Below are positions 5,404-22,530 of a stretch of 64,000 nucleotides of DNA, piece after piece (position 1 is the first letter of the stretch; each line of letters begins with the position of its first letter). The notes beneath the pieces were generated by a model. The model ran no database searches. It was not told the origin of the DNA and saw nothing but the letters and a program-made list of their open reading frames with translations. A program made the translations under genes and the position numbers. The stretch comes from Halopseudomonas pelagia (GTDB taxonomy: Bacteria; Pseudomonadota; Gammaproteobacteria; Pseudomonadales; Pseudomonadaceae): contig NZ_CP033116.1 of NCBI RefSeq assembly GCF_009497895.1, positions 372,001 through 436,000 on the forward strand, written 5' to 3'.

Positions 5404-5488
5404 GAATTATCACCCCCCTGCAACATACTGGAGCCCGCGCTCTGCTTGCTTGATACTGTCTCGAAATGACTAGCAAAGGATTCCGAAC

Positions 5489-6262
5489 ATGAATGAACAA
5501 CGCTTTGACCTGACCGGCAAAACCGCCTTGATTACCGGTGCTTCCAGCGGCCTGGGTGAACATTTTGCCCGCGTGCTCGCCGCGGCTGGCGCAAGCGTGG
5601 TAGTGGCAGCACGCCGGGCTGACCGTCTGGCAAGGCTGGTTCAGGATCTGCAGGATCAAGGCTATCAGGCGCTGGCCGTGACCATGGATGTGACCGACGC
5701 CGAGAGCATCGACGCCGGTTTCACCGCCGCTGAAACCCAGTTCGGCAGCGTGGACATCCTGATCAACAATGCCGGTATCGGCGAGGGCGTGCCCTTTCTC
5801 AAGATGACCGAGGGCAACTGGCGCAGCATGCTCGATACCAACCTGGACGGCGCCTGGCGCGTAGCGCATCGCGCCGCTGTGGCCATGGCCAAATCCGGGC
5901 AGGGTGGCAGCATCGTCAATATCGCCTCCATTCTCGGCTTGCGAGTTGGCCAGGGTCTGAGCCATTACGCCGTGGCCAAAGCTGGCGTGGTGCAGTTGAC
6001 CAAGGCGATGGCCATTGAGCTGGCGCGGGACAAGATCCGCGTCAATGCGATTGCTCCCGGCTACTTCCGCACCGAGATGAACAACGACTATTTCGAATCG
6101 GAGAAGGGCCAGCAGTACATCAAGGAAAAGGTACCGATGCGGCGTCTCGGCCAGTTGGAAGAGTTGAGCGGGCCTTTGCTACTGCTGGCCAGTGAGGCCG
6201 GTTCCTTCATGACCGGCACCATCATCAATGTAGATGGCGGGCACCTGAGTAACAGTCTGTAG
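5489..6262 (+). CDS. SDR family oxidoreductase
   Basis: 257 aa classical SDR resembling FabG-type reductases. It has TGASSGLG at residues 17-24, NNAG near residue 92, catalytic S and YAVAK around residues 143-163, and a C-terminal MTGTIINVDGG motif. An AGGA ribosome site precedes the ATG. The gene stands alone on the + strand, 85 nt after the kinase and 87 nt before the large sensor kinase. It need not belong to either group. Substrate unknown. Confidence 0.88.
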   Translation: MNEQRFDLTGKTALITGASSGLGEHFARVLAAAGASVVVAARRADRLARLVQDLQDQGYQALAVTMDVTDAESIDAGFTAAETQFGSVDILINNAGIGEGVPFLKMTEGNWRSMLDTNLDGAWRVAHRAAVAMAKSGQGGSIVNIASILGLRVGQGLSHYAVAKAGVVQLTKAMAIELARDKIRVNAIAPGYFRTEMNNDYFESEKGQQYIKEKVPMRRLGQLEELSGPLLLLASEAGSFMTGTIINVDGGHLSNSL

Positions 6263-6349
6263 CGATCGTCTATAGCCGCGTACTCCATGGCATGACACTA
6301 TGACGAACTGCTGTTGTGCGTGGGCCACCCCTGCCCGCTGGAAAAGCCC

Positions 6350-9300
6350 ATGCGTGCGAAGCTCATCCCCAATAAAGACATTCTGCTACACCTGGCCGGA
6401 GCGCTGCTGTTGGGCGCCTTCTTCCTGTTCCTGGGCTGGTCGGACCTTTTCAAACGTCAGACGCTCTGGGAGCATCAACTCTCCAGCCAATCCAATCTGC
6501 AGCGTCTAGCAGTAGAACAATCCCAGCAATCACTAAAACGTCAGGCGCTGATAGCCGCTCAGAGTTTGTCCGAAGATATTGAAACCCTGGCTTTAATAAG
6601 GCGAATTAGCGCTCTGGCGAGCGCCGACGGACTCGCTGGCGCCGAGGTTGCAACCTTGCGAGGCCAGTTGGCCAGAAAGTTGTCTGGCCCATGGTCGGTA
6701 CTCCAATCCGCTGGCGCGGTTGAATTGCATATTCATTTAAGTCCTGGTGCCATCAGTCTCTTGCGCATGCACGAACCCAGTACCTGGGGCGATAAGCTGA
6801 CCGATACACGTCCGTTGGTAGATCGCGCTCAGCGCGAAGGTATCCTTGTCAGCGGAATGGAAGCCGGCAGGCACGGTACCGGAATGCGCGGCATCGTGCC
6901 GATTCACGCTACCAACCTGTCCAGTAGCCCCGTAATAGCGACGCTGGAGGTTGGCTTTGGCATGCTGCCGGAGTTGCGCCAACTGGACATCGATCTGCAG
7001 TCAGGCTTGGCCCTGCTACTTAACAAGCGCAACTTGGCCGACGTGGTGTGGGACGAGCGAACAGCCGAACTTACTTTGATCGGTGATGGCGACTGGTGGC
7101 TGGAACGTTTCTCTCGACCAGAAATATCCACTTGGCTGCGCGATGGTTCACTGAACAAGATGGCAGAGAACTGGCAGCCCTCAACGCTGGTAATAGACCG
7201 GCGACGCTATCTGGTCAGCCATATTCCTGTGTTGAATGAACAGCGGGACGCGGATGACGCTGACCAGGCAATGGCGATGATTCTGGTCTGGCGCGATATC
7301 ACCCCTCTTTGGCAGGATTATCAAAGTGAGCGTCGTCAGGCGATGTTGACCTGGCTAGCCGCCTTTCTGGCGGCGCTGTCTTTGGTGGGTGGCTTGATGT
7401 TGGCGTCCAGGGAAAACGTTCGGCGGCAGGAAAAGCTCCAGCAGGCGCGCCTCAGGGAGACTATGCGCAAACGCGAACAGGACCGCGCACTCTTGAGCAT
7501 TATTGCCCATGCTCAATCTGCCTACATCAATGACAGTAACCTCAGCGACAGCTTCGATCAGCTACTTGAGCAAATTCTGGCGCTGACGGGAAGCCAGTTC
7601 GGCTTTGTCGGCCAAGTGCTGCTGGATGATCAACGCCGTCCGTACATGCAGACCTATGCCATCAGCAACATAGCCTGGGATGCCGACAGCGAGGCTTTCT
7701 ATCAAAAGCGGCTGGAAAAGGGGATGATCTTCAGCCAGCTGGACAGCTTGATTGGTCAGGTACTCCAGCACGCTATCCCCTACATCAGCAATGACCCGGT
7801 GAATGATCCACATCGTGGTGGCTTGCCGCCAGGGCACCCGGCGTTGTACGCGTATCTAGGCTTGCCGATATTGTTTGGGGAAGAGTTGGTCGGCATGATT
7901 GGCCTAGCCAATCGCCCTGAAGGCTACTCTCAACAGGATGTGGATTTCCTGCTACCGCTACTCAGTACTCTTGGACAGATGGTGCATGCGCTGCGCAAGG
8001 ACAGCGACGAACGCATCATCAGTCTTCGTTTGGACAGGAAGCGCTTGGCCCTCAGAGCCTTGAACGAAATTGCCGCGCTGCCCAGTCAGGACACAGCCAA
8101 CCTGCTCACGCAAGCTCTCGAGCTGGGATGCCAGTATTTGCAAATGGATTTTGGCACCGTGAGCCGCGTCGAAAACGCTCTCTACACGGTCATCGCCCAG
8201 CACAGTACCGAAGTACATTTTCGAGATGGCCAGGAGTTCGAGTTGGCGTCCACCTACTGTGCGCTAACACTGCAACAGGACGAAGTGTTGGCGATTGAGT
8301 TCATGGGGCAATCGCAATATAAGCAGCACCCCTGTTACGAAAGGTTCAAGCATGAGTGTTATCTGGGCATTGCCCTGACCGCGAATAATGAGCCCTACGG
8401 CACTTTAAACTTCTCCACCCTTCAACCTCGTGCAACGCCCTTTGACGAGACAGAGCTTGAGTTCGTTCGCCTGATGGGCCGCTGGGTTAGCGGCACTCTT
8501 GGTCGCTGGAGCATGAAGCAGGAGCACAGCGAGCTGATTGACCGACTTAGCAAACTGGCCCAGCACCTGCCCGGAATGGTTTACCAATATCAGCAGTCAT
8601 CGGATGGGCGCTCCTGGTTTCCCTATTGCAGCGAGGGTCTTCAAGATCTTTACGGCGTCAGCCCGGCACAGGCGGGAACAGACGCAAGCGACGTAATCAA
8701 CGCTATTCATCCCGAGGACCGCGATTCGGTGATGCGTAGTCTTGAAGTCTCCGCCGCTCGGCTAACTATTTGGCGCGAAGAGTTTCGAACCATACATCCT
8801 GACAAAGGGGAGCTATGGCTGTTAGGGAATGCCACGCCCCAGCGGCTGTTAAGCGGTGATCTGATCTGGCATGGCTTTACCACCGACATAACCGCACGCA
8901 AGCATATGGAACTTGCCCTGGGACACGAGCGCATGAGGCTGGCAAGCATAATTGTCGGCACTAATGTGGGCACCTGGGAATGGAATATCCAGACCGGAGA
9001 AGTGCTGCTTAACGAGCGCTGGGCCAACATTGTCGGCTACCGGCTAGAAGAATTGTCACCAGTCAATGAAGTCTGGCGAAACCTGTTTCACCCCGACGAC
9101 CTGGCCGTTTCCTCACAGATACTTGCCCGGCACATGGCCGGCAAACAGGAATTTTACGACAGCATCTCGCGGATGTTGCACAAAGACGGCCATTGGGTAT
9201 GGGTCAAAAGTAGCGGACGTTTGATCAGCCGCGATGAGCAGGGCAATCCGTTGTGGGTCAGTGGCACACATGTCGATATAACCCGGGAAATGCAGCGGGA

Positions 9301-10807
9301 TGCGGAAGTATCCGAGGCGCGCGCATTTCTCAGGGCAGTCATCGACGCATCTACTGAGGTATCAGTTATTGCCATCGGTCTTGATGGCGTTATTACGCTT
9401 TTCAACAGCGGTGCAGAAAAACTATTGGGTTACAGCGCTGATGAAATGATCGGCAAACACTCCCCAAACCTCTTCCACCTGAATACCGAATTGCAACGCC
9501 GCGCCGAGCAGCTGTCCGAAGAGCTGGGGCACCCTGTCAGCTACGAGGACGCGTTATTTGCAAATGTGCGGCAAGGGCTGCCCGAGACGCAGCACTGGAC
9601 CTACGTAAGCAAGAATGGCGGCCGACGGCTGGTGAACCTGACGATCACCAGCATTGTTGATCAGCAATGCAATTTGACTGGTTTCCTCAGCGTAGCGACC
9701 GATATCACCGACCTGATCGAGACAACCCAAGCCCTGCAAAAAAGCGAGTCTCGCTTTCGCTATATGGTCAGTAATTTACCCGGCGCGGTATACCATTGCC
9801 GCAATGATCGAAACTGGACCATGACTTATCTTAGTGAGGAGGTCAGCCGCATAACTGGCTATCCAGCCAGCGATTTCGTGGATAGCAACACAAGAACCTA
9901 TGCCAGCATAGTGCATCCTGAAGACCTTCATCTGACTTACAAAGCTGCAGAGCAGATAAGCAAGCACGAGGTATTTGAACTAACCTACAGGGTGATCCAC
10001 GCTGACGGCCGGGAAGTCAGGGTAAAGGAAAAAGGCCGAGGCGAATTTGATAGTGTCGGCAAACTGCTGTGGCTCAGCGGCTTTATCTGGGATGCGACCG
10101 AACAGCACCGGATCGATCAGCTGAAAAGCCAGTTTGTCTCTACCGTCAGTCACGAGCTGCGTACGCCGGTTACTGCCATTTCCGGCGCCCTAGGGTTGAT
10201 TAATGGCGGGGCCATGGGGCCATTACCTACCCACATGGCAGGCCTGATCGGAGTGGCTCACAATAATAGTCTGCGCCTTAACAGTCTTATCAATGATCTA
10301 TTGGATATGGACAAGCTGACTGCCGGCAAAATGTCACTCAGGATGGTCGAACAGCAGCTCACCCCTATTGTTCTGCAAACCTTGCACGACAATGCGAGCT
10401 ACGCCGAGCAATATCAAGTCCGTCTATTGGTTGGGACACTGGATGCCGTATACGTCGACATAGATGCTCAGCGGCTCGGCCAGGTGCTGACCAATTTTCT
10501 TTCCAATGCGGCGAAATTTTCTTCCCCTGGCTCGCAGGTAATTGTCGATGCCTTGCTGGACGGCAATCAGGTAAAAATCAGCGTTACCGACACTGGGATA
10601 GGTATTCCACAGGCCTTTCATCACAACATGTTCGAAAAATTCTCCCAGGTGGACGCAAGCAACACACGCCATAACAACGGGACAGGTCTTGGTCTGGCAA
10701 TCAGCAAGGAACTGACCGAGCGCATGGGCGGGGAAGTGGGCTTCATCTCGGACCCAGGGAAGGGTTCAACTTTCTGGTGCCTATTCCCAGCAACGACAGG
10801 TATCTAG
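6350..10807 (+). CDS. Large membrane GAF/PAS sensor histidine kinase without receiver
   Basis: 1485 aa from ATG 6350 with GGAAAA upstream; a TTG at 6314 would add 12 residues. A transmembrane segment lies near residues 10-30, a periplasmic sensor at 35-325, and a second transmembrane segment at 330-352. Two GAF-like domains (about 400-560 and 570-720) and four PAS/PAC units (about 735-850, 860-985, 990-1115, 1125-1250) follow. HisKA has H1268 in VSHELRTP. The HATPase_c domain (NFLSNAAKF, DTGIGIP, GTGLGLAI) occupies about 1370-1483. There is no receiver or Hpt of its own. The next two genes supply a free receiver and an Hpt-REC-REC-GGDEF protein, so the three genes look like an ordered phosphorelay. 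Inputs are unknown. Confidence 0.88.
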   Translation: MRAKLIPNKDILLHLAGALLLGAFFLFLGWSDLFKRQTLWEHQLSSQSNLQRLAVEQSQQSLKRQALIAAQSLSEDIETLALIRRISALASADGLAGAEVATLRGQLARKLSGPWSVLQSAGAVELHIHLSPGAISLLRMHEPSTWGDKLTDTRPLVDRAQREGILVSGMEAGRHGTGMRGIVPIHATNLSSSPVIATLEVGFGMLPELRQLDIDLQSGLALLLNKRNLADVVWDERTAELTLIGDGDWWLERFSRPEISTWLRDGSLNKMAENWQPSTLVIDRRRYLVSHIPVLNEQRDADDADQAMAMILVWRDITPLWQDYQSERRQAMLTWLAAFLAALSLVGGLMLASRENVRRQEKLQQARLRETMRKREQDRALLSIIAHAQSAYINDSNLSDSFDQLLEQILALTGSQFGFVGQVLLDDQRRPYMQTYAISNIAWDADSEAFYQKRLEKGMIFSQLDSLIGQVLQHAIPYISNDPVNDPHRGGLPPGHPALYAYLGLPILFGEELVGMIGLANRPEGYSQQDVDFLLPLLSTLGQMVHALRKDSDERIISLRLDRKRLALRALNEIAALPSQDTANLLTQALELGCQYLQMDFGTVSRVENALYTVIAQHSTEVHFRDGQEFELASTYCALTLQQDEVLAIEFMGQSQYKQHPCYERFKHECYLGIALTANNEPYGTLNFSTLQPRATPFDETELEFVRLMGRWVSGTLGRWSMKQEHSELIDRLSKLAQHLPGMVYQYQQSSDGRSWFPYCSEGLQDLYGVSPAQAGTDASDVINAIHPEDRDSVMRSLEVSAARLTIWREEFRTIHPDKGELWLLGNATPQRLLSGDLIWHGFTTDITARKHMELALGHERMRLASIIVGTNVGTWEWNIQTGEVLLNERWANIVGYRLEELSPVNEVWRNLFHPDDLAVSSQILARHMAGKQEFYDSISRMLHKDGHWVWVKSSGRLISRDEQGNPLWVSGTHVDITREMQRDAEVSEARAFLRAVIDASTEVSVIAIGLDGVITLFNSGAEKLLGYSADEMIGKHSPNLFHLNTELQRRAEQLSEELGHPVSYEDALFANVRQGLPETQHWTYVSKNGGRRLVNLTITSIVDQQCNLTGFLSVATDITDLIETTQALQKSESRFRYMVSNLPGAVYHCRNDRNWTMTYLSEEVSRITGYPASDFVDSNTRTYASIVHPEDLHLTYKAAEQISKHEVFELTYRVIHADGREVRVKEKGRGEFDSVGKLLWLSGFIWDATEQHRIDQLKSQFVSTVSHELRTPVTAISGALGLINGGAMGPLPTHMAGLIGVAHNNSLRLNSLINDLLDMDKLTAGKMSLRMVEQQLTPIVLQTLHDNASYAEQYQVRLLVGTLDAVYVDIDAQRLGQVLTNFLSNAAKFSSPGSQVIVDALLDGNQVKISVTDTGIGIPQAFHHNMFEKFSQVDASNTRHNNGTGLGLAISKELTERMGGEVGFISDPGKGSTFWCLFPATTGI

Positions 10808-10874
10808 GCACTGAACCGGCGCGCCTCGCCCGCATGGACAAAAGCAAGTACTCTGCAATGAAAGTCAACATCCG

Positions 10875-11300
10875 ATGAAGACCCCGAATCTCAGCAGCAT
10901 GGATAATGGAAAAATGATAGAGCTGGAAAAAATCATGCATATCGAGGACGACCTGTCGATTCAGGAAGTTGCTCGAGTGGCGCTGGAAATCGTTGGCGGT
11001 TTTACCATGATCAGCTGCAGCTCCGGTTCCGAGGGGCTGGAGCAGGTCGAACGTTTTGCCCCCCAACTGATCCTGCTGGATGTCATGATGCCCGGCATGG
11101 ATGGTCCAGAGACTCTTGCACAATTACGCCGTCTGCCGACGGTGAAGGACACGCCCGTGGTGTTTATGACCGCTAAAGTGCAAGAACAGGAAATCCAGGA
11201 ATATTACCGGCTCGGAGCTGCCGGGGTGATTATCAAGCCGTTTGATCCGATGACCCTGTCTAGCCAGATCAAAGCCATATGGTTACAAGCCCGTGCCTAA
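10875..11300 (+). CDS. Single-domain CheY-like response regulator
   Basis: 141 aa, receiver domain only. Acidic pair in MHIEDD, phosphoacceptor Asp in LILLDVMMPGMDG, Thr in VFMTAK and Lys in IIKPFDP. The start is uncertain: ATGs at 10875, 10899 and 10914 are all in frame, and the last gives the usual spacing to the acidic pair. It has no output domain, so it probably shuttles phosphoryl groups from the upstream kinase to the Hpt domain of the downstream cyclase. It overlaps that gene by 8 nt. Confidence 0.88.
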   Translation: MKTPNLSSMDNGKMIELEKIMHIEDDLSIQEVARVALEIVGGFTMISCSSGSEGLEQVERFAPQLILLDVMMPGMDGPETLAQLRRLPTVKDTPVVFMTAKVQEQEIQEYYRLGAAGVIIKPFDPMTLSSQIKAIWLQARA

Positions 11301-12936
11301 AGCCGCCAAGCTCAAGGTACAGCTCTCGGAGCTGACAAAGGTATTCCGCAGTCACCTTGAGGTCGAACTGCAAGATATGCAGCTCGCGGCTGACCAATTG
11401 CCCATTGATGCCGACACCGTGCCTGAAGACGTCATCAGCCTGCGTAACGGTCTGCATAAACTTGCAGGTTCAGCGGGTACCTTTGGCTTTACCGATCTGG
11501 GCCTGCAAGCGCGCAAGCTGGAACAAGTGGCGAAGAACTGCATAAGCCAGAACTATCTTGATCCTGCCTCACGGCAGCGTCTGGTGAGAGGTATTCATGC
11601 CCTGCCGCACTGGTTGTTCGATATTGATGACGAACAACCTAGTGAGCGCATCGTATCGCCATTGACTGAGCCCCTATCCAGATCCAAGCTGATTGCCATT
11701 CTTGAAACAGATAAAATGCTGCTCGCGGCAACCAGCCAGACGTTGAACAGTTTCGGCTATCAAACCCAAGGGTTTACTACTTTCAAAACCTTGCGTGAAG
11801 CACTAAAGCAAACATTACCGGATGCGCTGGTCGTGGCGGTGGGGCAGAAAGGCATCGACCGCGCGGGTCTGGATTATTTGGCGGGCCTGCAATCTCAGCT
11901 GGAAAGCCCCTTGCCTTTGATCGTTATCTCAGAAGATGACAATTTCGCCGATCAGATCCAAGCGGTACGGGCTGGAGCCCAGGGATTCTTTACTCGCCCA
12001 GTCGATTTGCCCGCGCTGGAGAACCGCCTGGAGGGTTGCTTCAACAGCTTGCAGAACGAACCCTTTCGGGTTCTTATTGTTGACGATGACCTGGATCTGG
12101 CAAGACGCTTTGAAGCCGTGCTGAGCAGTGCCGGGATGTTGGCAGAGGTGGTAATTGAGCCCACTCAGTTACTGCAGCAGTTGGCGCACTTCACCCCAGA
12201 AGTGGTGTTGATGGACGTCAACATGCCAGAGTACTCCGGGCCGGAGCTTGCCCAGGTAATTCGTCTTAATGACGACTGGTTGCGCGTGCCGATTCTGTAC
12301 ATTTCCGCCGAAACTGACGCCACGCGCCAGATGCAAGCGCTAATGAAAGCCGGCGACGATTTTATCACCAAACCCATCAGTGATAACGCGCTGCTTACTA
12401 CTGTATATTCTCGCGCCCAAAGGGCACGGCGTGTCAGTCATGCCTTGGCCCGTGATAGCCTTACCGGTCTGCTAAAACACGCCGACATAAAGGAACAGGT
12501 GGCTATCGAAATGGAACGGGCTGCACGTATGCGTCGCCCGGCCAGTGTGGCTATGATCGACATAGATCACTTCAAAAGCGTAAACGACCAGCACGGCCAC
12601 GCCGTTGGCGACAACGTAATCCGGGCGCTAGCCAATCTGTTACGCCAGCGCTTGCGCAAGATCGACCGCCTAGGACGCTATGGCGGTGAAGAGTTTCTTG
12701 CGGTCCTTCCTGATTGCGATGCAGCGGATGCCAAAGCTATTCTTGACGAGATCCGCTCTGCGTTCCACGACTTGTATTTCACTGGCGCAGCAGGCTCCTC
12801 ATTCCAGTGCAGTTTCAGTGCCGGCATCAGCGCATGTAATCAACAAAGTGCGTGGCAGATCGTCGAGCCTCTGGAAAAAGCTGATGCCCATCTTTACAAG
12901 GCCAAGAAGGATGGCCGAAATCGGGTCGTTGCGTAG
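11293..12936 (+). CDS. Hpt-REC-REC-GGDEF diguanylate cyclase
   Basis: 547 aa from a GTG start overlapping the receiver gene by 8 nt. Domain order: Hpt (about 5-105, H55 in LHKLAGSAG); a receiver-like domain (about 130-250) lacking the phosphoacceptor Asp (VVAVG replaces it); a complete receiver (about 255-375, D308 in VLMDVNMPE); and GGDEF (about 385-547). The active site is GGEEF at 464-468, so cyclase activity is expected. R455-K-I-D458 lies five residues before it, matching the RxxD c-di-GMP inhibitory site. Having Hpt and receiver in one chain allows a relay to end in c-di-GMP synthesis. It is convergent with the next gene, 5 nt apart. Confidence 0.9.
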   Translation: MPKAAKLKVQLSELTKVFRSHLEVELQDMQLAADQLPIDADTVPEDVISLRNGLHKLAGSAGTFGFTDLGLQARKLEQVAKNCISQNYLDPASRQRLVRGIHALPHWLFDIDDEQPSERIVSPLTEPLSRSKLIAILETDKMLLAATSQTLNSFGYQTQGFTTFKTLREALKQTLPDALVVAVGQKGIDRAGLDYLAGLQSQLESPLPLIVISEDDNFADQIQAVRAGAQGFFTRPVDLPALENRLEGCFNSLQNEPFRVLIVDDDLDLARRFEAVLSSAGMLAEVVIEPTQLLQQLAHFTPEVVLMDVNMPEYSGPELAQVIRLNDDWLRVPILYISAETDATRQMQALMKAGDDFITKPISDNALLTTVYSRAQRARRVSHALARDSLTGLLKHADIKEQVAIEMERAARMRRPASVAMIDIDHFKSVNDQHGHAVGDNVIRALANLLRQRLRKIDRLGRYGGEEFLAVLPDCDAADAKAILDEIRSAFHDLYFTGAAGSSFQCSFSAGISACNQQSAWQIVEPLEKADAHLYKAKKDGRNRVVA

Positions 12937-12941
12937 AACAG

Positions 12942-14300
12942 TCAGGCGTTTTTTGCCTGCATCCGCCGGTACAGCGTGGATGGCGCTACCTCGAGAAGCG
13001 CTGCAGCCTGGGCAACATTGCCTTGGCAGTGAGCGAGGGCGCGCGCTATGGCATCCCGCTCAACCTGCCACAAAGGCAGAATGCCCGCAGCCTGTTCGTC
13101 GACCGGAGCCTGATCGGAAAGCGCAACTGAACGGCTTTTTGGTAGAACAATATGGGCCGCTTCAAGCCAGTCCCCGTTGTGCATGACCACAGCGTGGCGA
13201 AGGGTATTTTCCAACTCCCGGACATTGCCTGGCCATGAATAGGCCTGCAACAGTTGTCGCGCGGATTCTGAAAGCCCCTTGAAGCGTTTTCCTTCTACAG
13301 TCGAAAATTGCAATAGCAATGCCGTAGCGATTTCCACAATGTCACCTCCCCGCTCGCGTAACGGGGGAATCAACAGGGGCACAACGTGCAGCCGATAGAA
13401 GAGATCCTCACGGAACAACCCCTTTTCCACTCGTTTACGGATATCCAGGTTGGTTGCGCAGACGATCCGACAATTGAGATGCTTGCTGATCGAAGTGCCT
13501 ACTGGAGTGATTTCTCCAGTTTGTAAAAACCGCAGGAGCTTACTCTGCACCTCAAGGCTTAGCTCGGTTACTTCGTCAAGAAACAAGGTGCCGCCATGTG
13601 CTTGTTCAGTAAGCCCGGTCCGGCTGGCAACAGCACCCGTAAACGCTCCTTTGATATGACCAAATAACTGCGACTCAACGAGTTCGCTGGGGATGGCAGC
13701 ACAATTCAAGGCAACCAGAGGTTTATTTCTGCGTGGCCCGTATTGATGGATCGCCGAGGCACAGAGTTCCTTTCCGGTGCCGCTCTCGCCACTGATAAAC
13801 ACCGGCGCATCGGAGTGAGCGATAAGACGAAGTGTATGATAGAGAGACTGCATTTGAATCGATGAGCCGATAAAACCCGGTGGTGGTGGGGCATTGACTG
13901 TCGCCGCCAGGTTACTAGCGATACTTTCCAACTTGCGCGCCCGCAGCGCGTTCCTCACACTCACTCTCAGCCGGTCGGCATCCACCGGCTTCACCAGAAA
14001 ATCCTGCGCACCTTCCTCCATGGCTTGCACTGCTAGCCGTTGAGAGTTGTCTGCAGTGATAACAATGACCTCACACTGCAAGCCGCGCTGCCGAATGGAG
14101 CGCAAGATATCCAGCCCAGCCATGTCAGGCAGATGCAGATCCAGCAACACAACACTGGGAGTATTGTTCTCCAGCCAGTCGAGTGCTTGGGCACCGTCTT
14201 CCACTAGCGTCATGGGTACACCCAGGACAGAGAGCCAAATCTCGTAGAGCATGGAGGTGGACTGGGAATCTTCTACCAATAACAGTCCTGCCGAATTCAT
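12942..14300 (-). CDS. Sigma-54-dependent response regulator, LuxO-like (NtrC family)
   Basis: 452 aa from the ATG at 14300 with AAGGGA upstream; a longer frame to 14357 lacks a good ribosome site. A receiver (1-120, D54 in VVLLDLHLPDMAG) is followed by an AAA+ domain with Walker A GESGTGKE, the sigma-54 contact loop GAFTGA, and Walker B GGTLFLDE. A Fis-type helix-turn-helix is at the C-terminus (NVAQAAALLEVAPSTLYRRM). The receiver resembles Vibrio LuxO in length and in phrases such as DMAGLDIL and GAQDFLVKPVDADRLRV. A divergent REC-Hpt gene lies beside it, recalling luxO-luxU. The strong sigma-54 promoter at 15222 is the obvious candidate target. Confidence 0.92.
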   Translation of the reverse strand: MNSAGLLLVEDSQSTSMLYEIWLSVLGVPMTLVEDGAQALDWLENNTPSVVLLDLHLPDMAGLDILRSIRQRGLQCEVIVITADNSQRLAVQAMEEGAQDFLVKPVDADRLRVSVRNALRARKLESIASNLAATVNAPPPPGFIGSSIQMQSLYHTLRLIAHSDAPVFISGESGTGKELCASAIHQYGPRRNKPLVALNCAAIPSELVESQLFGHIKGAFTGAVASRTGLTEQAHGGTLFLDEVTELSLEVQSKLLRFLQTGEITPVGTSISKHLNCRIVCATNLDIRKRVEKGLFREDLFYRLHVVPLLIPPLRERGGDIVEIATALLLQFSTVEGKRFKGLSESARQLLQAYSWPGNVRELENTLRHAVVMHNGDWLEAAHIVLPKSRSVALSDQAPVDEQAAGILPLWQVERDAIARALAHCQGNVAQAAALLEVAPSTLYRRMQAKNA

Positions 14301-14412
14301 TTTATTTCCCTTTTCGCAATACAAGCGAGGCTGGTGCGGGATTGGCATGGCGGCCATACTGAGTTGGCAATACCCCCCAATTTACGTCCACTACGGCTTC
14401 GGAGCCAAAGAA

Positions 14413-15093
14413 ATGGCCTTACACGTGCGATCTTCATCCCCACATGTGCTGGTGGTGGATGACGACGCCTCCAACCTGATTATCGCCCAATCGCTCCTGC
14501 AACATCAGGGATGCACTGTCGTTGGCTGCGATGACTTCGCTGGCGCTATACGAGCGTTGCAGGCTAACTCCTTCAACCTGGCCTTGATCGACATAAACAT
14601 GCCCGAAGGTAGCGGCTCGGCTCTAAGCGTGGAACTGCAACATATTGATCCGGAGCTAGCGTGCATCGCATTTACCGCTGACACCGACTACCAGCAACAA
14701 CTCGACTTTCTGCATGGCGGTTTCCGCGGATTGCTGGTCAAGCCGATAAGTCCTGACAGCCTAACTCGGTTGCTGAACGAGCAGGGCATGACTCCTGGGA
14801 ACGGGCCGGTACTCAGCAAGCTGGCAGCGCTTCCGAACGACGCGCGCGAGCGCTATATCACGCTCATGATTAGAGATGTGTCACGCTCTCTCGAGAGCCT
14901 GCGCAACGACCCGAAACCAGAGGCGCGTCAGCGTGCGTTGCATTCCCTCGTGGGAGTGCTAGGCACCGCGGGCGCCCGCGGCTACGACCAGGCAGTTGAA
15001 GCCGAACGTCTGGAGCGCGATCAACTGCTCACATCACAACAATTGAATAGCCTGCTGTTACAGATAGACAGGTTACTGAGCGAACTTGATTAA
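14413..15093 (+). CDS. REC-Hpt phosphotransfer protein (LuxU-like relay)
   Basis: 226 aa from ATG 14413, with GGAG at 14401-14404; the frame is open upstream to 14251 but that part overlaps the divergent regulator. The receiver (10-125) has D16-D18 and phosphoacceptor D60 (LALIDINMPEGSG). The C-terminal helical domain (about 140-226) carries H177 in ALHSLVGVLGTAG, an Hpt-like motif with the usual Lys replaced by Val. It probably passes phosphate between the hybrid kinase at 18686 and the LuxO-like regulator encoded divergently. No output domain. Confidence 0.82.
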   Translation: MALHVRSSSPHVLVVDDDASNLIIAQSLLQHQGCTVVGCDDFAGAIRALQANSFNLALIDINMPEGSGSALSVELQHIDPELACIAFTADTDYQQQLDFLHGGFRGLLVKPISPDSLTRLLNEQGMTPGNGPVLSKLAALPNDARERYITLMIRDVSRSLESLRNDPKPEARQRALHSLVGVLGTAGARGYDQAVEAERLERDQLLTSQQLNSLLLQIDRLLSELD

Positions 15094-15110
15094 CTCCCAA
15101 TTGATCCAAT

Positions 15111-15155
15111 TTGCAGTATGCAATTGCGAAATGCAACGATAATCGCATAATGCAA
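15111..15155. promoter_or_regulatory. Three TTGC-N5-GCAA palindromes, candidate enhancer (UAS) array
   Basis: Copies: TTGCAGTATGCAA (15111-15123), TTGCGAAATGCAA (15124-15136) and TCGCATAATGCAA (15143-15155). The first two abut and the third follows after 6 nt. The centre lies about 90 bp upstream of the -24 element of the sigma-54 promoter, a usual distance for enhancer sites. The dimeric Fis-type helix-turn-helix of the neighbouring LuxO-like regulator is the likely reader (inference). Confidence 0.7.
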
Positions 15156-15221
15156 TTATATTCATGAGAAATTTCTTCCAATTCCACCGGCGACCTCTTT
15201 AGCTCGCCGCTTCAGACTTTA

Positions 15222-15237
15222 TGGCCCGGCTCTTGCT
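15222..15237 (+). promoter_or_regulatory. Sigma-54 (RpoN) promoter
   Basis: TGGCCCGGCTCTTGCT matches the consensus TGGCACG-N4-TTGCW at all fixed positions except one (C for A at position 5), with correct GG/GC spacing. It would start transcription near 15249 and drive the operon beginning at 15412. Confidence 0.82.
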
Positions 15238-15411
15238 CTGTTTCAGTAATGATCATGGAAACAGGCCCCTTTATGCTTTATCAGGTTTCAACCAGCGGAA
15301 CCCGCTTGGCTTTTCATCGAGCTTCGCCCCCGGGCAATCCTCTTTTTGTCTTGAAGGGCGGAGCGCACAGTCAAGAAATACTCGAACAGTTTCCGCAGAA
15401 TCGCCAGCATC

Positions 15412-17508
15412 ATGGATGATGCAGGACGACAAGTCATACTGGTGGTCGAGGATGATCCCATCCTCCGTCGCTTGCTGGCCCATGGGCTGGAAAGCGAAGG
15501 CTATCTAGTTCAGCTCGCCGCCAATGGCCTGGAAGCTCTGCATCAGGCCGAGCAAGTCGCGCCAGCGCTGGTGCTGATGGATGTAGGCATGCCTATCATG
15601 GACGGCTTCACCGCTTGCCGTGAACTGCGCCTACGGCATACGGAGCTGCCTGTGCTGATGCTGACCGGCTACGACGATGTCGACTCAATCAACACGGCTT
15701 TTGAAACCGGCGCCACCGACTTCATCACCAAACCCATCAACCTCCCTTTGCTGACCCAACGCGTGCGTTATGCATTGCGGGACGCCGAACGCGACCACGC
15801 GTTGCGTCGAGCCTATCAGGATCAGACTACTGCCTGTCGCCTGGCCAACATGGGCTTCTGGCAACTGGGCATTGCCAGCGGAAGGATGAAATGGTCGGCC
15901 GATGCACACAAACTCATATCGCAGGACAGAGTGCTACCCAGCCAGGTGACCGAACTGATGCAAATGGTCGACCCTGAACAGGCGGCACATCTGACCACAT
16001 TGTTCAGGGCAGCCATATCCAACCAGGTACCGGTAGATGTCGATGTTGTGCTCAGGTCCTCAGGCCGCGCCCGTGTACTTCGGCTGATTACCGATGCTCA
16101 GCAAGAGGATGGCCAACTGCGCGGCGCATTTCAGGACGTGACTGAACAAAGGGCCATCCAGCAGCAAGTACAATATCTAGCAGAACATGATCAGCTGACC
16201 AGCTTACCCAACAGACGACTTTTTCAGCGCCTGCTGACACTGCAGCGCAACCAACAAAATCCGGACCAGAGACTGGTAGTTGCTGTGCTTGATATCTGCA
16301 AGTTGCATCGGATAAACGATTCACTGGGCAGCAAAAGCGGCGATCAACTGCTGATGATGGTTGCCCAGCGACTCCGCAGTTGCTTGCCTAAAAATGCAAT
16401 CCTAGCGCGACTGGAAGCAGACAGTTTCGCCCTTGCGCTGCCCCTGTCACACGCTTCCTCAACCGGAATTAGCGCACAACTGGATCGGTTATTAGTACCA
16501 CTCACGCAATCCTGGCAACTTAACGCCAGGCAGATATTTCTCAATTTCACACTTGGCTTTACCTCTGACAATAACAATGATGCCCCACAGGAAAGCCTGT
16601 TACAGAGAGCGTTTGGCGCCCAGCGACAGGCCCGGCCGAACAAGGGCATTAGTTTGTGCTGCCATGAGCAACTCCCGCCCGGCGCCGAAGACGATCAGTT
16701 AATGCTGGAAACAGAACTCCGCCAAGCACTGGTCAATCAGGAATTTTCCCTGCTGTATCAGCCTCAGCAGTCTCTGGAAAATGGTCAGATCGAGGGCGTT
16801 GAAGCGCTGGTTCGCTGGCAACACCCACGTCGTGGCCTGCTGCCGCCAGCAGCCTTCATTACGGCAATGGAGGATATGGGACTGATCGATGAGCTGGGAG
16901 AATGGGTCCTTGCCGAGTCCTGCAGACAGGTTGCTCTGTGGCAATCCCGGGGTTTGAGGATCAGAACGGCAGTCAATCTGGCGTCCAGCCAATTCGAGTC
17001 TTCTGATCTGCCCGTCCTGGTCCAGCGGCTATGCCATGAGACCCGCTGCCCACCCGACATGATCGAGTTGGAAATCACCGAAAGCATGGCGATGGTCAAC
17101 CCACAGAAGACGATTGAACAACTGTCCGAGTTGAAACGTCTGGGTGTACGCATTGCCATTGATGACTTCGGCGTGGGCCATTCTTCTCTGGAGTATCTGC
17201 TGCACTTCCCGCATGACGTTCTGAAAGTGGATCGTACCTTTATCAAAAACATCACCACCAGCAAAGGGAGTCGAGCCATAGTGCGATCGCTGACTGCCTA
17301 CTGTTCGGCGATGGGCATTACCTGTCTGGCCGAGGGTGTCGAAGAACAGCGCCAGCTTGACTACCTGGACGCGCTGGCAGTGGACGTCATACAGGGTTTT
17401 TTACTTTCCCGGCCGATTACGGCCGATGAAGTGGAAACCATGGTCTTCCAGCTGGCCACCGACAATGCACAGAAACAGGATGTTTCCGCAGAGAGGACCA
17501 GCGCATGA
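15412..17508 (+). CDS. Response regulator with degenerate GGDEF and intact EAL (c-di-GMP phosphodiesterase)
   Basis: 698 aa. Receiver at 1-125 with D57 (VLMDVGMPIMDG), a PAS-like segment at about 135-245, a GGDEF-like domain at about 255-420, and EAL at about 425-685. The cyclase motif is degenerate: E335-A-D-S-F where GGDEF is expected, so synthesis is unlikely. The EAL domain keeps E464-A-L (VEALVRW), the EITES Glu, IDDFGVGHSS, KVDRTF and the AEGVEE glutamate, so hydrolysis of c-di-GMP is expected. It overlaps the FIST gene by ATGA. The domain order and neighbours parallel Legionella Lpg0277, reported to act under NosP/NahK control. Confidence 0.9.
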   Translation: MDDAGRQVILVVEDDPILRRLLAHGLESEGYLVQLAANGLEALHQAEQVAPALVLMDVGMPIMDGFTACRELRLRHTELPVLMLTGYDDVDSINTAFETGATDFITKPINLPLLTQRVRYALRDAERDHALRRAYQDQTTACRLANMGFWQLGIASGRMKWSADAHKLISQDRVLPSQVTELMQMVDPEQAAHLTTLFRAAISNQVPVDVDVVLRSSGRARVLRLITDAQQEDGQLRGAFQDVTEQRAIQQQVQYLAEHDQLTSLPNRRLFQRLLTLQRNQQNPDQRLVVAVLDICKLHRINDSLGSKSGDQLLMMVAQRLRSCLPKNAILARLEADSFALALPLSHASSTGISAQLDRLLVPLTQSWQLNARQIFLNFTLGFTSDNNNDAPQESLLQRAFGAQRQARPNKGISLCCHEQLPPGAEDDQLMLETELRQALVNQEFSLLYQPQQSLENGQIEGVEALVRWQHPRRGLLPPAAFITAMEDMGLIDELGEWVLAESCRQVALWQSRGLRIRTAVNLASSQFESSDLPVLVQRLCHETRCPPDMIELEITESMAMVNPQKTIEQLSELKRLGVRIAIDDFGVGHSSLEYLLHFPHDVLKVDRTFIKNITTSKGSRAIVRSLTAYCSAMGITCLAEGVEEQRQLDYLDALAVDVIQGFLLSRPITADEVETMVFQLATDNAQKQDVSAERTSA

Positions 17509-18686
17509 TAATTCGTTTTGACGCTGGCGGGTCTGTCAGTTGGCTTCAGAGCCAGCTGGACGAATATCAGTGCGACCCGAGCATTCAGGCCGTCATGCTG
17601 TTTGCCACCTCACAGAACGGCTGGCCGGAGGGCTGGCTGGACAGTCTCCTGCAGCGCCAGCGCAAGCCGGTATTCGGCGGACTGTTTCCTATGTTAATCG
17701 CCCAGGGCGACAGCCATGAACGTGGGACCCTGTGCATTGGCCTGACTCATCGTCCAGACCTGCTGGTGCTGCCCGAGTTGAGCAATCCCGCACAGAGTCT
17801 CGAACAGATGGTTGCGGAAATGCCTGCGGCGTGCCACTCATTAACTCGTGCCAACGCAACTCTCATGGTTCTGGTCGACGGCTTGACTACCGGCATCTCG
17901 CGTCTAGTCGAAGCGCTCTTCAACCAATGCGGCTTACAAATGAATATTCTTGGCGGCGGCGCTGGGGCGCAGAATATGCAGCCAGCCGCCTGCATCATTA
18001 CGCCCCAAGGTGTTCTTCGCGACGCCGCGCTGGTCGCCCGTCTGGCACTGGGCAGCGGTGTGGGTGTGGCCCACGGCTGGGCGCCAATGTCCGCCAGCTA
18101 CACAGTCACGGAATCCGAACAGAACATCATTCGCAGCCTGGACTGGCAACCCGCTTTATCGGTCTACCATCATGAGCTGGCGCTGCACAGCAATGTGGCT
18201 CTGAGCGAACCCTCACTGCCCCACCAAGCCAACGCACACCCACTGGGTATCAGCCGCATGGACAGCGAAGTCGTGGTCCGGGATGTTATCGCGGCAGATG
18301 TCGACGGTGGGCTGATCTGCCTCGGTGAGATACCCGCCGGCGAATTTATACATGTATTGCATGCCAGTGCAGCTGACTTGCTGACCGCGGCTCGACTGGC
18401 ACGCGATGTTGCGATCAATGAGCTTGAGGAACTGGAACAGCTCGAGTGTCACCGTTCCAACATTGCCTTGGTGTTCGATTCGCTATCCAGAGCCCAGTTT
18501 CTCGGTGCTGACATGGAGCTGGAAATCGCATTGCTGAGCAACAATCAGCAGCTTGACGTGTTTGGCGTGCTGACCCTCGGCGAGATCGCCAACAGCGGAA
18601 AAGGCTATCTGGAGTTTTACAACAAAAGTTGTGTGCTTGCTTGCTTCGCCAAGCCTCCTCTCAGTATCCGCCTGGAACAACTCTAA
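17505..18686 (+). CDS. FIST-domain sensor, NosP-like
   Basis: 393 aa cytosolic protein with FIST_N (about 20-215; [22 protein letters not shown]) and FIST_C (about 220-365; [38 protein letters not shown]). FIST proteins of this size next to hybrid kinases include NosP, a heme protein that binds nitric oxide and regulates kinase autophosphorylation (P. aeruginosa PA1975, Legionella Lpg0279, Vibrio VpsV). The heme ligand cannot be fixed from sequence alone. It overlaps both neighbours (4 nt and 1 nt), so it is translationally coupled to the EAL protein and the kinase. Confidence 0.82.
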
Positions 18687-21136
18687 TGCACAGGGCCGAC
18701 AACACCGAGATCCTGTACCAGATTGCGCTTTCTATCGGCAACAGCCTCGAACTGCAGAGCATGCTCAAGGAGTGCTGCACGACCCTGCTGCGCGCACTGA
18801 ACGGCTCTGCCTTGTGCGTCATGCAGCAACAGCCTGACCACGCCGAATGGACGCCTATCCTGCATATGCCCAGAACCGCAGCACTTGATGGCACCTTCGA
18901 GGACTCCACTTTTGCGGATATTGCCACAGGACACCAGACCTCCTATTGCCTGATCAGCTCTAAAGCAGAATGTCATTGCTTCAGCCTTCCAGGGTTCGGG
19001 GTGTTGATGTTGCAAAAAAGAACGGCCCAGCTACGTCCGGAGCTGGTGATCTCGTTGCAGCAACTTATGGCTAAACTCGCACTCGCAATCCATGCGTGTC
19101 TGTATGAAGCCGAGCTGAAAAAGCAAGTGCTCAGTGCCCAGTCTGCCAACACCGCCAAGAGCCAGTTTCTCGCCAATATGAGCCACGAGATTCGCACGCC
19201 CATGAACGGGGTGATTGGTATGCTCGACCTGGCGCTCGATTCGGACCTGCCTCAACAGCAACACGAGCAGCTGCAACTGGCGCGCCTCTCTGCCAGTCAC
19301 CTGCTTGAGATCATTAACGACGTGCTGGATCTATCCAAGATCGAAGCCGGCAAGATCGAAGTTCAGCCGGAGAAAACCGTGTTGCTGCAGTTGGTCGGGC
19401 ATGTCATGAAGTCCTTGGCACCCAAAGCCTGGGAGAAGCAGCTCGACTTCAAATATGCGCTGGAGCCAGGACTGCCCTGCGAAATCATGGTCGACGCTCC
19501 CCGTCTGCGCCAGGTATTGCTTAATCTGCTGGGAAACGCACTCAAATTCACGCAACACGGGACAGTCTGCCTGCATGTTGGCTGGCAAACCGGCGGCGAC
19601 AATACTGGCCGGCTGCGTTTCCAGATCCAGGACACAGGTCCTGGAATCGCAGCAGACAATCTCAGCCATATATTTGACGCCTTCACCCAGATAGACAACG
19701 CTAGCACTCGGCAGTTTGAAGGTTCAGGTCTGGGTTTGGCTATCGTACGGCGGCTGACGGTAGTCCTCGGCGGAGAAATCAGCGTCACCAGCACACGGGG
19801 TGAAGGGGCCAGCTTCTACTTCGATATTCCAGTGCTGGCGGTCCCACCGGACCCCACCCACCTCCCGGCGGCTCGCCGCGCGCTGCTGATCGCAGATGAC
19901 CCCATAACCCGAAGCAGCTTGGCCGTCATGTTGCGGACCTTGCACATCAATCTAATCGAAGCATGCAGCGGCTCGGAAGGCCTGTTTCTGCTGCGCGAGG
20001 CCAAACTCGCAGACGCAGCTTTTGAGTTTCTGCTTATAGAAGAACACATGCCCGACACAAGTGGCAGCCAGACTATCCGCAGTGTGTTGGGCGAGCAATT
20101 GCTCGAGGCTGATCGCATCACTCTGATCCTTCCCTGCAATCTGCCGGAAACCTCTCGTTCTGCCAAACGCCAGGAACTCATACGCTGCCTGGTCAAACCA
20201 GTGGTTATCGATGAGTTGCAACGTGTAGTAGGACAGCGACAGGGACAGGGACAAGGACAAGGACAGCCCCCGACGACCAACGCCCCAGCCAAAGGTCTTC
20301 CCATACTCCGGGTGCTGATTGTCGAAGACAACCTGATCAACCGCAAGCTAACCGAGTCACTGTTAAGAAAGGCCGCCATGCATTGTCGATGTGCAGAAAA
20401 CGGTGAGCAGGCGATGACCATGCTGGAGCGCGAATCGTTCGATCTGATACTGATGGACATGATGATGCCGGTCATGGACGGCATGCAGACCATCGCTGCC
20501 ATTCGGCAGCGCGCGCAGCAACAAGGTTTGATGCCGGTGCCTATCATCGCTTTGACTGCAAACGCGATGAAAGGGGATCGCGAACGATATCTGGCAGAGG
20601 ACATTCAGGGTTACGTCTCCAAGCCGGTGGATGGGCCTCTGCTAATCGATACTATCCGCCAGCTGGCAACCGTCCGAATACCCCACCCAAGCCCCGCTGA
20701 ATACTCGTTGGAAAACCTGTTGCTTGAAGCTACCCAGATTCTGCCCGCTCACGGCATTAGCGCAAGCTGGGCGGTAGCCAATCGGCTGGATCTGCCGCGT
20801 ATCCTCAGCCGACTGGGTGGCGACAAAGCACTGTTGGAGATCATTACCGGCTTGTTTCTGGAGGATGCTCCCGGTTACCTCCAGACTCTGGAAGAGGGCA
20901 TTCGTCAGCAGGATCACGACGTGGTCGCAAGGCTGGCGCATACGCTCAAGGGACTGGCTGGCACGTTCGCCGCCGATGACGTTGCGGATACCGCCCGGCA
21001 ATTGCAGGACCAGGCCCGACAGAACCAGAGCGCGGCCTGCCAGCAGGCTACCTACGCTCGCTTGCGACAGCAGATTGTAGAGCTGATCAGTGCCCTCAAT
21101 CAGATTCCACATAGCTCCGGGAGGGTCAGCGTATGA
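18686..21136 (+). CDS. Hybrid histidine kinase (GAF-HisKA-HATPase-REC-REC-Hpt), NahK/VpsS-like
   Basis: 816 aa from an ATG sharing one base with the FIST stop (TAATG). No transmembrane segment. GAF-like N-terminus (5-145); HisKA with H167 ([11 protein letters not shown]); HATPase_c (about 275-395). A first receiver (about 400-515) has E452 in place of the phosphoacceptor Asp (LLIEEHMPD). A Gln-Gly linker follows, then a second receiver with D591 ([13 protein letters not shown]) and a C-terminal Hpt with H752 ([10 protein letters not shown]). It probably receives the FIST signal and sends phosphate through D591 and H752 to the REC-GGDEF-EAL protein and to the REC-Hpt/LuxO-like branch. That routing is inference. 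Confidence 0.9.
20231..20266 (+). repeat. Hexanucleotide GGACAR tandem repeat inside the hybrid kinase gene
   Basis: Six tandem 6-bp units (one variant, CGACAG) encode alternating Gln and Gly in the linker between the two receivers. The unit length keeps the frame, so slippage would change linker length rather than truncate the kinase. Confidence 0.85.
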
Positions 21137-21228
21137 CCTGGGTACGCTCAATTATCGCAGTGCTGGATGGCTGAAGCATTCGCTGGCGCTAAACCGAATA
21201 CCACTCCCTGACACTAAAGGAATTCAAT

Positions 21229-22530
21229 ATGCTGCTGCATAAATGGGGTAAACGTCTGGAACAGGAAGTCAATGGATTACAGGGGACCGTTCACGATCTC
21301 AAAAACGACCTGAATGCCGTTCGTCTAAACATGGGCTGGATCGAATTCTCGGTCCGGGGCGAGGTTCTGACCGCCAATGACCTGTTTCTCGGTATTGTTG
21401 GCTACCAACTGGAAGACATTCGTGGAAAACACCATCGAACCTTTTGCGACCCAGCCTATGCGAAATCGACAGCCTATCGCCAATTCTGGAACGAGCTGGC
21501 TGCCGGTATAAGCCAGACAGGTACGTTCAAGCGGCTGAAACGCTCCGGCGAGGCTGTATGGCTGGAGGCCTCGTACTTCCCGGTACGTAACGAGCATGGG
21601 GAAGTAACCAAGATCATCAAGATTTCCGCCGACGTGACCGAGAACCAGCAGGCACTGATGGACCGCAACGCGATGTTCCATGCCCTGGACAAATCACTGG
21701 CAGTGATCGAGTTTTCGCCCCAGGGCGATATCTTGCATGCCAATGACAACTTCCTGCGGACGACTGGTTACAAGCTGGCGGACATCAAGGGAAAACACCA
21801 TGAGATATTCTGCGAGCGTCAGTTCTACCGTGAAAACCCCGGGTTCTGGTCCGATCTCGCCGCCGGCAGATTTCACTCGGGGCGATTTGAGCGCAAGGAT
21901 GCTCAGGGCAATGTGATCTGGCTGGAGGCAACCTACAATCCGATTGTGAATACTGAAGGCAAAGTCTACAAGGTGATCAAATTTGCGTCGAACATCACCC
22001 AGCGAGTGATGGACGCGCAAAATGCCGCCGAAGTTGCTGCAACAACCTCCGAGGAAACATCACAGATCACCTCTCAGGCACGGCACGCGCTCGAAGACGC
22101 AGTGCGAATCTCCGGTCAGATTACCGATCAGGTCAAAGAAGCCAGTGACATCAGCCAACAGTTGAGTGCTCAGTCGAACAGCATTGCGGCCATCGTTACC
22201 ACCATTCGTGCGATTGCCGATCAAACCAACCTTCTGGCGTTGAACGCGGCAATTGAAGCGGCTCGCGCCGGAGATACCGGTCGAGGCTTTGCGGTCGTGG
22301 CCGATGAGGTACGCAAGCTTGCGGCCCGAACCGGCGAAGCGACCATGGAAATCGGCAGCGTGGTACAGGCCAATGCCGGACTGATCGCCAAGATCCACGT
22401 GCAGATGGAGCTCATCAGCGAAAGCTCAGGCCAGAGCCAGGACGGCATTGCTCTAGTCAGCTCGGGCATTGCTGAAGTCGAACAGGGCGTGGCGCATCTA
22501 GCGGAAATGACCAGTCGCCTGTCAGCCTGA
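21229..22530 (+). CDS. Soluble PAS-PAS-methyl-accepting chemotaxis protein, BdlA-like
   Basis: 433 aa without transmembrane segments. A short coiled coil at 5-30 is followed by two very similar PAS domains (about 32-145 and 150-270; each has a GYxLxDIxGKHH motif). The C-terminal signalling domain has the conserved MCP hairpin ([17 protein letters not shown], then [14 protein letters not shown]). Size and layout match P. aeruginosa BdlA, which triggers biofilm dispersion. It follows the hybrid kinase by 92 nt on the same strand. An aerotaxis-type receptor is the alternative reading. Confidence 0.85.

Follow-up and report, generated by a model that had tools for sequence, protein, structure and literature searches.

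What does a LuxO-like sigma-54 activator control when its gene lies beside those for a FIST protein, a hybrid histidine kinase and an enzyme of cyclic diguanosine monophosphate (c-di-GMP) turnover, and does it take part in a circuit with them? We examined this question in a 64,000-nucleotide stretch of the Halopseudomonas pelagia genome (G000:C1:372001-436000, hereafter the window), which is 4.55 Mb long and assembled as one contig. An initial annotation had described five genes at this locus, and Pfam searches together with the open reading frame table recovered all five with the domains and order that it gave (Table 1). The FIST-FIST_C gene adjoins the histidine kinase gene (Pfam), and the frames overlap, by 4 nt between the EAL and FIST genes and by at least 1 nt between the FIST and kinase genes. 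That annotation had further proposed sigma-54 transcription as a second output of the circuit; the target of this output is probably the operon itself with the chemoreceptor gene downstream. What is new here, and had been missed, is a set of LuxO-type boxes and a sigma-54 promoter in front of the EAL-FIST-kinase operon, whereas related wiring between FIST-linked kinases and LuxO is already known.

The three tandem boxes occupy the intergenic region between the REC-Hpt and EAL genes, 66-98 bp upstream of the sigma-54 site at 15222. One of them (15111-15123) is exact, and the other two (15124-15136 and 15143-15155) carry one mismatch each. Published work gives TTGCAWWWTGCAA as the site from which LuxO activates (PMC10162802), and sites of V. 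cholerae LuxO have been mapped by chromatin immunoprecipitation sequencing (PMC10328515). Set against TTGCAWWWTGCAA, a single box of the three matches at both half-sites, and its spacer includes one base other than A or T. The promoter, TGGCCCGGCTCTTGCT, differs from TGGCACGNNNNTTGCW by a single mismatch, and the genome contains an RpoN gene. Given boxes and a near-consensus sigma-54 promoter ahead of the EAL gene, expression of the EAL-FIST-kinase operon probably depends on the LuxO-like protein. The sequence gives good support for control of this operon, probably with the chemoreceptor gene as its last member, by the LuxO-like/Hpt pair.

Single sites of either kind are common by chance, with 3.9 boxes and 1.3 promoter-like sites expected in the window. 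A box triple within 60 bp (the actual span is 45 bp) occurred in none of 150 simulated 64-kb windows and is expected about 2e-4 times genome-wide. Across the genome we found 128 boxes with at most one mismatch per strand, four of them exact, versus 52 for a backward control. Our genome-wide survey of pairs was limited to the pattern TGCAA-N60..90-GGC-N7-TTGC, whose 65 hits were examined in 30 loci and in 33 further stretches holding the other 35 hits; among them, a box of no more than one mismatch accompanies a promoter of no more than two at this locus alone. The EAL-FIST-kinase operon is the strongest predicted LuxO-type target found in the genome. Looser pairs exist, and those in which the box has two mismatches (L185, L048, L222, L224 and L234) were set aside as weak.

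The same pairing recurs near LuxO-like genes elsewhere. Of 15 other stretches from Gammaproteobacteria that carry a LuxO-like gene, 8 contain a box-promoter pair (11 pairs in 246 kb), compared with 1 of 74 FIST-encoding stretches lacking a clear one (2 pairs in 1203 kb), the two sets differing in phylum and base composition, which limits the comparison; the backward box gave no pair with a promoter in any set of stretches. The 15 stretches came from other genomes of a 369-genome class sample, in which mostly only four candidates were scored per genome, and covered at most 20 kb around each LuxO-like gene (expect value (E) <=1e-140). Weak LuxO-like hits in L070, L075, L077 and L138, the last without HTH_8, did not qualify as LuxO, and these loci remain part of the 74 controls. 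Within the 15 stretches a pair can sit some kilobases away from the LuxO-like gene. In two stretches (L165 2957-3047 and L166 10939-11029), a box and sigma-54 site lie upstream of the LuxO-like gene on the same strand, which suggests autoregulation of that gene.

Table 1. Predicted features of the locus, in window coordinates
Feature	Position	Strand	Basis
LuxO-like sigma-54 activator, REC-AAA+-HTH_8	12942..14300	-	Pfam; LuxO is the best NCBIfam model
REC-Hpt protein, LuxU-like candidate	14413..15093	+	REC by Pfam; Hpt half inferred
Three tandem LuxO-type boxes, TTGCANNNTGCAA	15111..15155		Box scan; spacing kept in G020
Sigma-54 -24/-12 promoter, TGGCCCGGCTCTTGCT	15222..15237	+	Near-consensus; same 16-mer in G020
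REC-GGDEF(degenerate)-EAL protein, probable c-di-GMP phosphodiesterase	15412..17508	+	Pfam, motifs
FIST-FIST_C protein, non-NosP clade	17505..18686	+	Pfam, NCBIfam, confident AlphaFold2 model
Hybrid kinase, HisKA-HATPase-pseudoREC-REC-Hpt	18686..21136 (TTG start at 18629 also possible)	+	Pfam, motifs
PAS-PAS-MCP chemoreceptor, 433 aa, probable last gene of the operon	21229..22530	+	Pfam; G020 arrangement

A scan of the locus revealed no terminator-like site between the kinase gene and the PAS-PAS-MCP gene. At the other end of the operon, a 56-codon open frame (15249-15419) extends from the predicted sigma-54 start to the EAL gene, its end overlapping the EAL start codon.

For the LuxO-like protein, the LuxO model NF041946 was the top match among the best 25 of 113 models, at 516.4 bits, which is below that model's curated cut-off of 800, and the REC, AAA+ and HTH_8 domains of the LuxO family are all present by Pfam. 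In a search for Vibrio genomes with true LuxO, none of 369 and none of 24 genomes exceeded this cut-off. The DNA-contact residues of V. cholerae LuxO have been listed (PMC11407668); in an alignment by eye, the recognition region GNVAQAAALLEVAPSTLYRRM is identical at 7 of the 11 critical residues and conservative at the other 4, and the LuxO-like protein of a relative, G015, matches at 10 of 11. Two Rfam matches to CRISPR repeats inside the EAL and LuxO genes fell below gathering scores, and we treated them as chance.

Conservation within the genus bears on how the parts came together. At E <=1e-100, the LuxO-like protein was matched in 3 of 37 genus genomes: its own, that of a sister species (G020, 70% identity) and G015 (approximately 57-58%). 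In a tree that takes 13 of the 15 gammaproteobacterial loci (L160 and L164 were left out, as longer antisense frames mask the gene), the window and G020 proteins are sisters (98/97) and G015 joins next (100/100). FIST matches were confined to 2 of 58 relatives searched, namely the window's own genome and G015. There, the order is LuxO-like, divergent REC-Hpt, isochorismatase-like, PAS-kinase-REC, EAL, FIST, kinase and HDOD, so REC-Hpt and EAL are separated by two additional genes; identity to the window proteins is 51% for EAL, 45% for the kinase, 39% for FIST and 27% for REC-Hpt. Because the same five genes recur in order in G015 (27-57% identity), the link between the LuxO/Hpt and FIST-kinase-EAL units is not chance, and their presence at one locus, as first annotated, is borne out.

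G020, a draft genome that is 79% complete, lacks the EAL, FIST and kinase genes between its Hpt gene and its chemoreceptor gene, while seven neighbouring genes match those of the window at 51-95%. Its promoter 16-mer is identical to ours and faces the PAS-PAS-MCP chemoreceptor gene; upstream of it are three boxes with one mismatch each, which differ in sequence from those of the window and have the same spacing of 13 and 19 bp. This is exactly the insert-free arrangement of a history in which the boxes and promoter belong to the chemoreceptor gene, the EAL-FIST-kinase genes having been inserted between it and an old LuxO-controlled promoter. We regard that history as highly improbable: G015 branches before the window and G020 and already has the EAL-FIST-kinase genes alongside LuxO, which makes a single loss in G020 simpler than two gains, and the 20 kb of G015 read yielded no homologue of the chemoreceptor. 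With the window and G020 as sisters in the LuxO tree and G015 next, loss of the EAL-FIST-kinase cassette in G020 is the simplest history. The genes, domains, boxes and promoter, and the conservation of each, can be read from the DNA.

Beyond control of the operon, the locus may encode a self-contained phosphorelay in which the LuxO-like activator transcribes its own FIST sensor, kinase and EAL phosphodiesterase, a reading on which we consider the chances even. The FIST protein would set the activity of the adjacently encoded hybrid kinase. Phosphate would then pass from kinase His167 to Asp591 in the second receiver (816-aa numbering) and on to either the kinase's own Hpt domain (His752) or the separate LuxU-like REC-Hpt protein, and from there to two receivers, that of the EAL phosphodiesterase (Asp57) and that of the LuxO-like activator. 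Once phosphorylated, the activator would bind the boxes at 15111-15155 and activate the promoter at 15222, which would transcribe the EAL, FIST, kinase and probably chemoreceptor genes. When triggered, such a circuit would make more sensor, kinase and phosphodiesterase and lower c-di-GMP. We infer DNA binding, the phosphate routes, the sign of the feedback, c-di-GMP hydrolysis and any biofilm or motility output, and closure of the loop through phosphorylation of LuxO by the FIST-linked kinase is plausible. More tentatively, the locus might represent a relay of the LuxO/LuxU type outside Vibrio, no autoinducer input being evident, that serves as a positive-feedback switch including a BdlA-like chemoreceptor, its promoter acting as an exchangeable socket whose cargo was lost in the sister species.

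The GGDEF site of the EAL protein is degenerate (RLEADSF at residue 333), and its EAL domain has the motifs EALVRW, EITES, IDDFG, LKVD, AEGVE and QGF, which we take to have their usual catalytic roles, consistent with a phosphodiesterase. In the kinase, the first receiver has Glu452 at the expected Asp position when its motifs are aligned by eye with those of the second, and no membrane segment is clear, the top 19-residue hydropathy being 1.52 versus 2.33 in a 1497-aa GAF/PAS kinase encoded upstream.

The remaining component, the REC-Hpt protein, is assigned its Hpt half by a motif, a weak profile match and a homologue without REC. Pfam detected no Hpt domain in it. All three REC-Hpt homologues have an H-x-L-V-G motif with conserved His177, and comparison to real Hpt domains gave a borderline profile match that brings the histidines into register (probability 35%, E 4e-4). 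Its predicted model, which includes four longer C-terminal helices, has a confidence (predicted local distance difference test (pLDDT) 54.7) too low for us to rely on. The G020 counterpart is a free 112-aa Hpt-like protein that keeps the stretch LHSLVGVLGTA, with no receiver sequence left between it and LuxO; Vibrio LuxU is about the same size. A LuxU-like role for the REC-Hpt protein is supported because this homologue consists of the free Hpt half only.

Several observations weigh against a closed loop, or against the control of the operon on which it depends. G020 has LuxO, Hpt and the promoter with no FIST match in its 79% complete draft, so LuxO there does not seem to need this kinase. 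The kinase has its own Hpt, which leaves the role of the separate REC-Hpt protein unclear. At the thresholds used, no box-promoter pair precedes the EAL operon of G015; an exact box in that genome (L034 13412-13539) instead precedes a PAS-kinase/REC-HD-GYP pair on the far side of LuxO, and 60 bp beyond this box is a promoter-like site with three mismatches. These G015 sites count against a fixed link between LuxO and the EAL operon, yet they again place a LuxO-type box before c-di-GMP genes. Apart from the window, only one of six loci with both FIST and LuxO-like genes (L084) has a box-promoter pair, and there it stands before STAS-SpoIIE-LuxO genes. Within the window, a weak terminator-like stem (15294-15306) lies between the promoter and the EAL gene, and the only sigma-70-like site detected (15124-15151) shares sequence with boxes 2 and 3; such sites are rarer here (one sigma-70-like, five terminator-like) than the shuffle means of 4.4 and 8.7.

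Some of these points suit a cascade, in which LuxO and REC-Hpt are fed by other kinases, such as the 1497-aa GAF/PAS kinase, and only transcribe the EAL-FIST-kinase-chemoreceptor operon, with the FIST-linked kinase acting on the EAL protein alone. We find this possible, if somewhat doubtful. G020 retains a homologue of the 1497-aa kinase (51%) at the equivalent place alongside LuxO, Hpt and promoter, and the kinase's own Hpt likewise fits a cascade. The wider distribution of FIST-kinase loci contributes evidence in both directions. A survey of the genome collection with an alignment query returned 122 pattern-matching stretches, of which 111 encode FIST relatives; we retained the 80 best (a single-protein query confirmed 0 of 131 stretches). 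Directly 3' of FIST stood a kinase-like gene in 64 loci, which speaks for the phosphorelay proposed above, an EAL-like gene in 7 and neither in 9. An EAL gene (36-51% identity) directly precedes FIST in seven of the 80 (L065, L066, L067, L070, L072, L076 and L096), and in L075 the upstream EAL gene is split over two frames. These EAL-FIST loci are mainly from Nitrincola, in which there are EAL-FIST-kinase neighbourhoods with no LuxO in the fetched flank, as a cascade would allow.

By contrast, six of the 80 loci have a LuxO-like gene (46-57% identity) in the fetched flank: the G015 contig (L067), four Tolumonas metagenome-assembled genomes (MAGs; L094, L099, L102 and L103) and another Aeromonadaceae MAG (L084). 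The four Tolumonas loci have LuxO, FIST and kinase consecutively on one strand, and in L084 LuxO lies approximately 2 kb before FIST. All five MAGs group these genes without an EAL gene, which argues against the cascade, since LuxO-FIST-kinase groups lacking EAL suggest that FIST-linked kinases talk to LuxO-like proteins. A further argument in the same direction comes from V. cholerae, in which VpsS exchanges phosphate with LuxU (PMC6769237). The initial annotation had also treated the combination of FIST-kinase-EAL with LuxO as unusual; the five Aeromonadaceae MAGs weaken that claim, and so does the V. cholerae FIST-kinase pair, which already feeds LuxU-LuxO (PMC6769237). As a side observation, L084 has at 3678-12440 boxes and a sigma-54 site followed by STAS, HATPase_c_2-REC-SpoIIE, LuxO-like, FIST and kinase genes. 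We presume this gene set to resemble the syp regulators of V. fischeri.

What the FIST protein senses is a separate matter. It had initially been labelled FIST/NosP, with nitric oxide (NO) or another haem ligand as the proposed input, and on this view a NosP-type sensor of NO would have two separate outputs, one being c-di-GMP hydrolysis and the other an unrelated sigma-54 regulon such as Qrr-like small RNAs. Binding of haem and NO has been reported for FIST proteins (PMC8846402, PMC12570481). In favour of this view too, 56 of 57 clade members have H190, a candidate ligand residue, which also occurs in 12 of 12 rows of an earlier alignment that includes a true NosP, with whose His it aligns. 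(The 57 rows comprise the window, G015 and 55 hand-picked loci of the 80, the other 25 being near-copies, partial or otherwise left out.) The NosP label is nevertheless not supported: the protein scores 20.7 bits against a curated cut-off of 450 for NF041558, and among the clade, 30 of 57 members touch the model, none better than E 6e-10. The genome's other FIST protein is a true NosP (584 bits; L156 8488-12259, G000:C1:2686487-2690258) and adjoins a NahK/ErcS'-type kinase (1452 bits, just below the 1500 cut-off; its NahK/ErcS subfamily domain exceeds the separate cut-off for that domain). An Rfam search of 12900-21300, the only stretch of the genome searched, gave no Qrr match, and the strongest LuxO-type target found is, as described above, the EAL-FIST-kinase operon. 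We therefore judge the two-output NO sensor unlikely. The predicted FIST fold is confident (AlphaFold2 pLDDT 92), and sequence search found no related solved structure.

In V. cholerae, the FIST-kinase pair and LuxU-LuxO are encoded at separate loci. Here, LuxO-like, Hpt, FIST, kinase and phosphodiesterase genes share one locus. The two systems are alike in having a FIST protein encoded with a cytosolic hybrid kinase and an Hpt protein, putative in our case, upstream of a LuxO-type sigma-54 activator (NosP(VpsV)-VpsS-LuxU-LuxO; PMC6769237, PMC4398556); in V. cholerae, NosP acts as an inhibitor of VpsS, the kinase that feeds LuxU-LuxO (PMC6769237). They differ in that our kinase has its own Hpt, our Hpt protein has a REC domain, and the circuit here probably targets its own operon and not qrr genes. 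A one-locus combination of LuxO/Hpt and FIST-kinase is not described in the available parts of PMC6769237, PMC4398556 and PMC8738867, in a literature search that lay mostly outside subscription journals and likewise yielded no paper on LuxO in Halopseudomonas. Legionella and Burkholderia pseudomallei have FIST-kinase-regulator operons (PMC11237717, PMC12570481); respectively NosP-NahK-NarR and NosR-NosP-NosK, these each unite a FIST protein, a kinase and a REC protein with c-di-GMP domains, as here (PMC11237717, PMC8846402, PMC12570481). Unlike our locus, these come with no LuxO or Hpt partner in the available text of the same reports, and the window FIST fails the NosP model. At qrr1 of V. 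fischeri, SypG and LuxO act through TTGCAWWWTGCAA sites that lie ahead of a sigma-54 promoter (PMC10162802), as proposed here, whereas our probable target is a signaling operon and the window protein may be of either LuxO or SypG ancestry. The chemoreceptor resembles BdlA and McpS of P. aeruginosa in its domain order, two PAS domains ahead of MCP (PMC8694187, PMC9769550); unlike them, it lies behind a LuxO-type promoter.

The locus offers a one-locus test system for FIST protein signaling, in which the conserved boxes and promoter make the proposed control of the operon testable. It bears on the roles of LuxO-type activators outside Vibrio quorum sensing, and may bear on how transcription and c-di-GMP hydrolysis are coupled within one relay.

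Upstream, the plus strand of 6314-12936 encodes the 1497-aa GAF/PAS kinase (6314-10807), a REC protein and an Hpt-REC-REC-GGDEF protein, a set convergent with the LuxO-like gene. The last of these has a GGEEF motif and is a probable c-di-GMP synthase. In G020, no match to the REC or GGDEF protein was found between the 1497-aa kinase and LuxO. The signaling block as a whole (6000-22000) has a G+C content of approximately 53-57% versus 60-64% on either side, and looks as if it has had a separate history.

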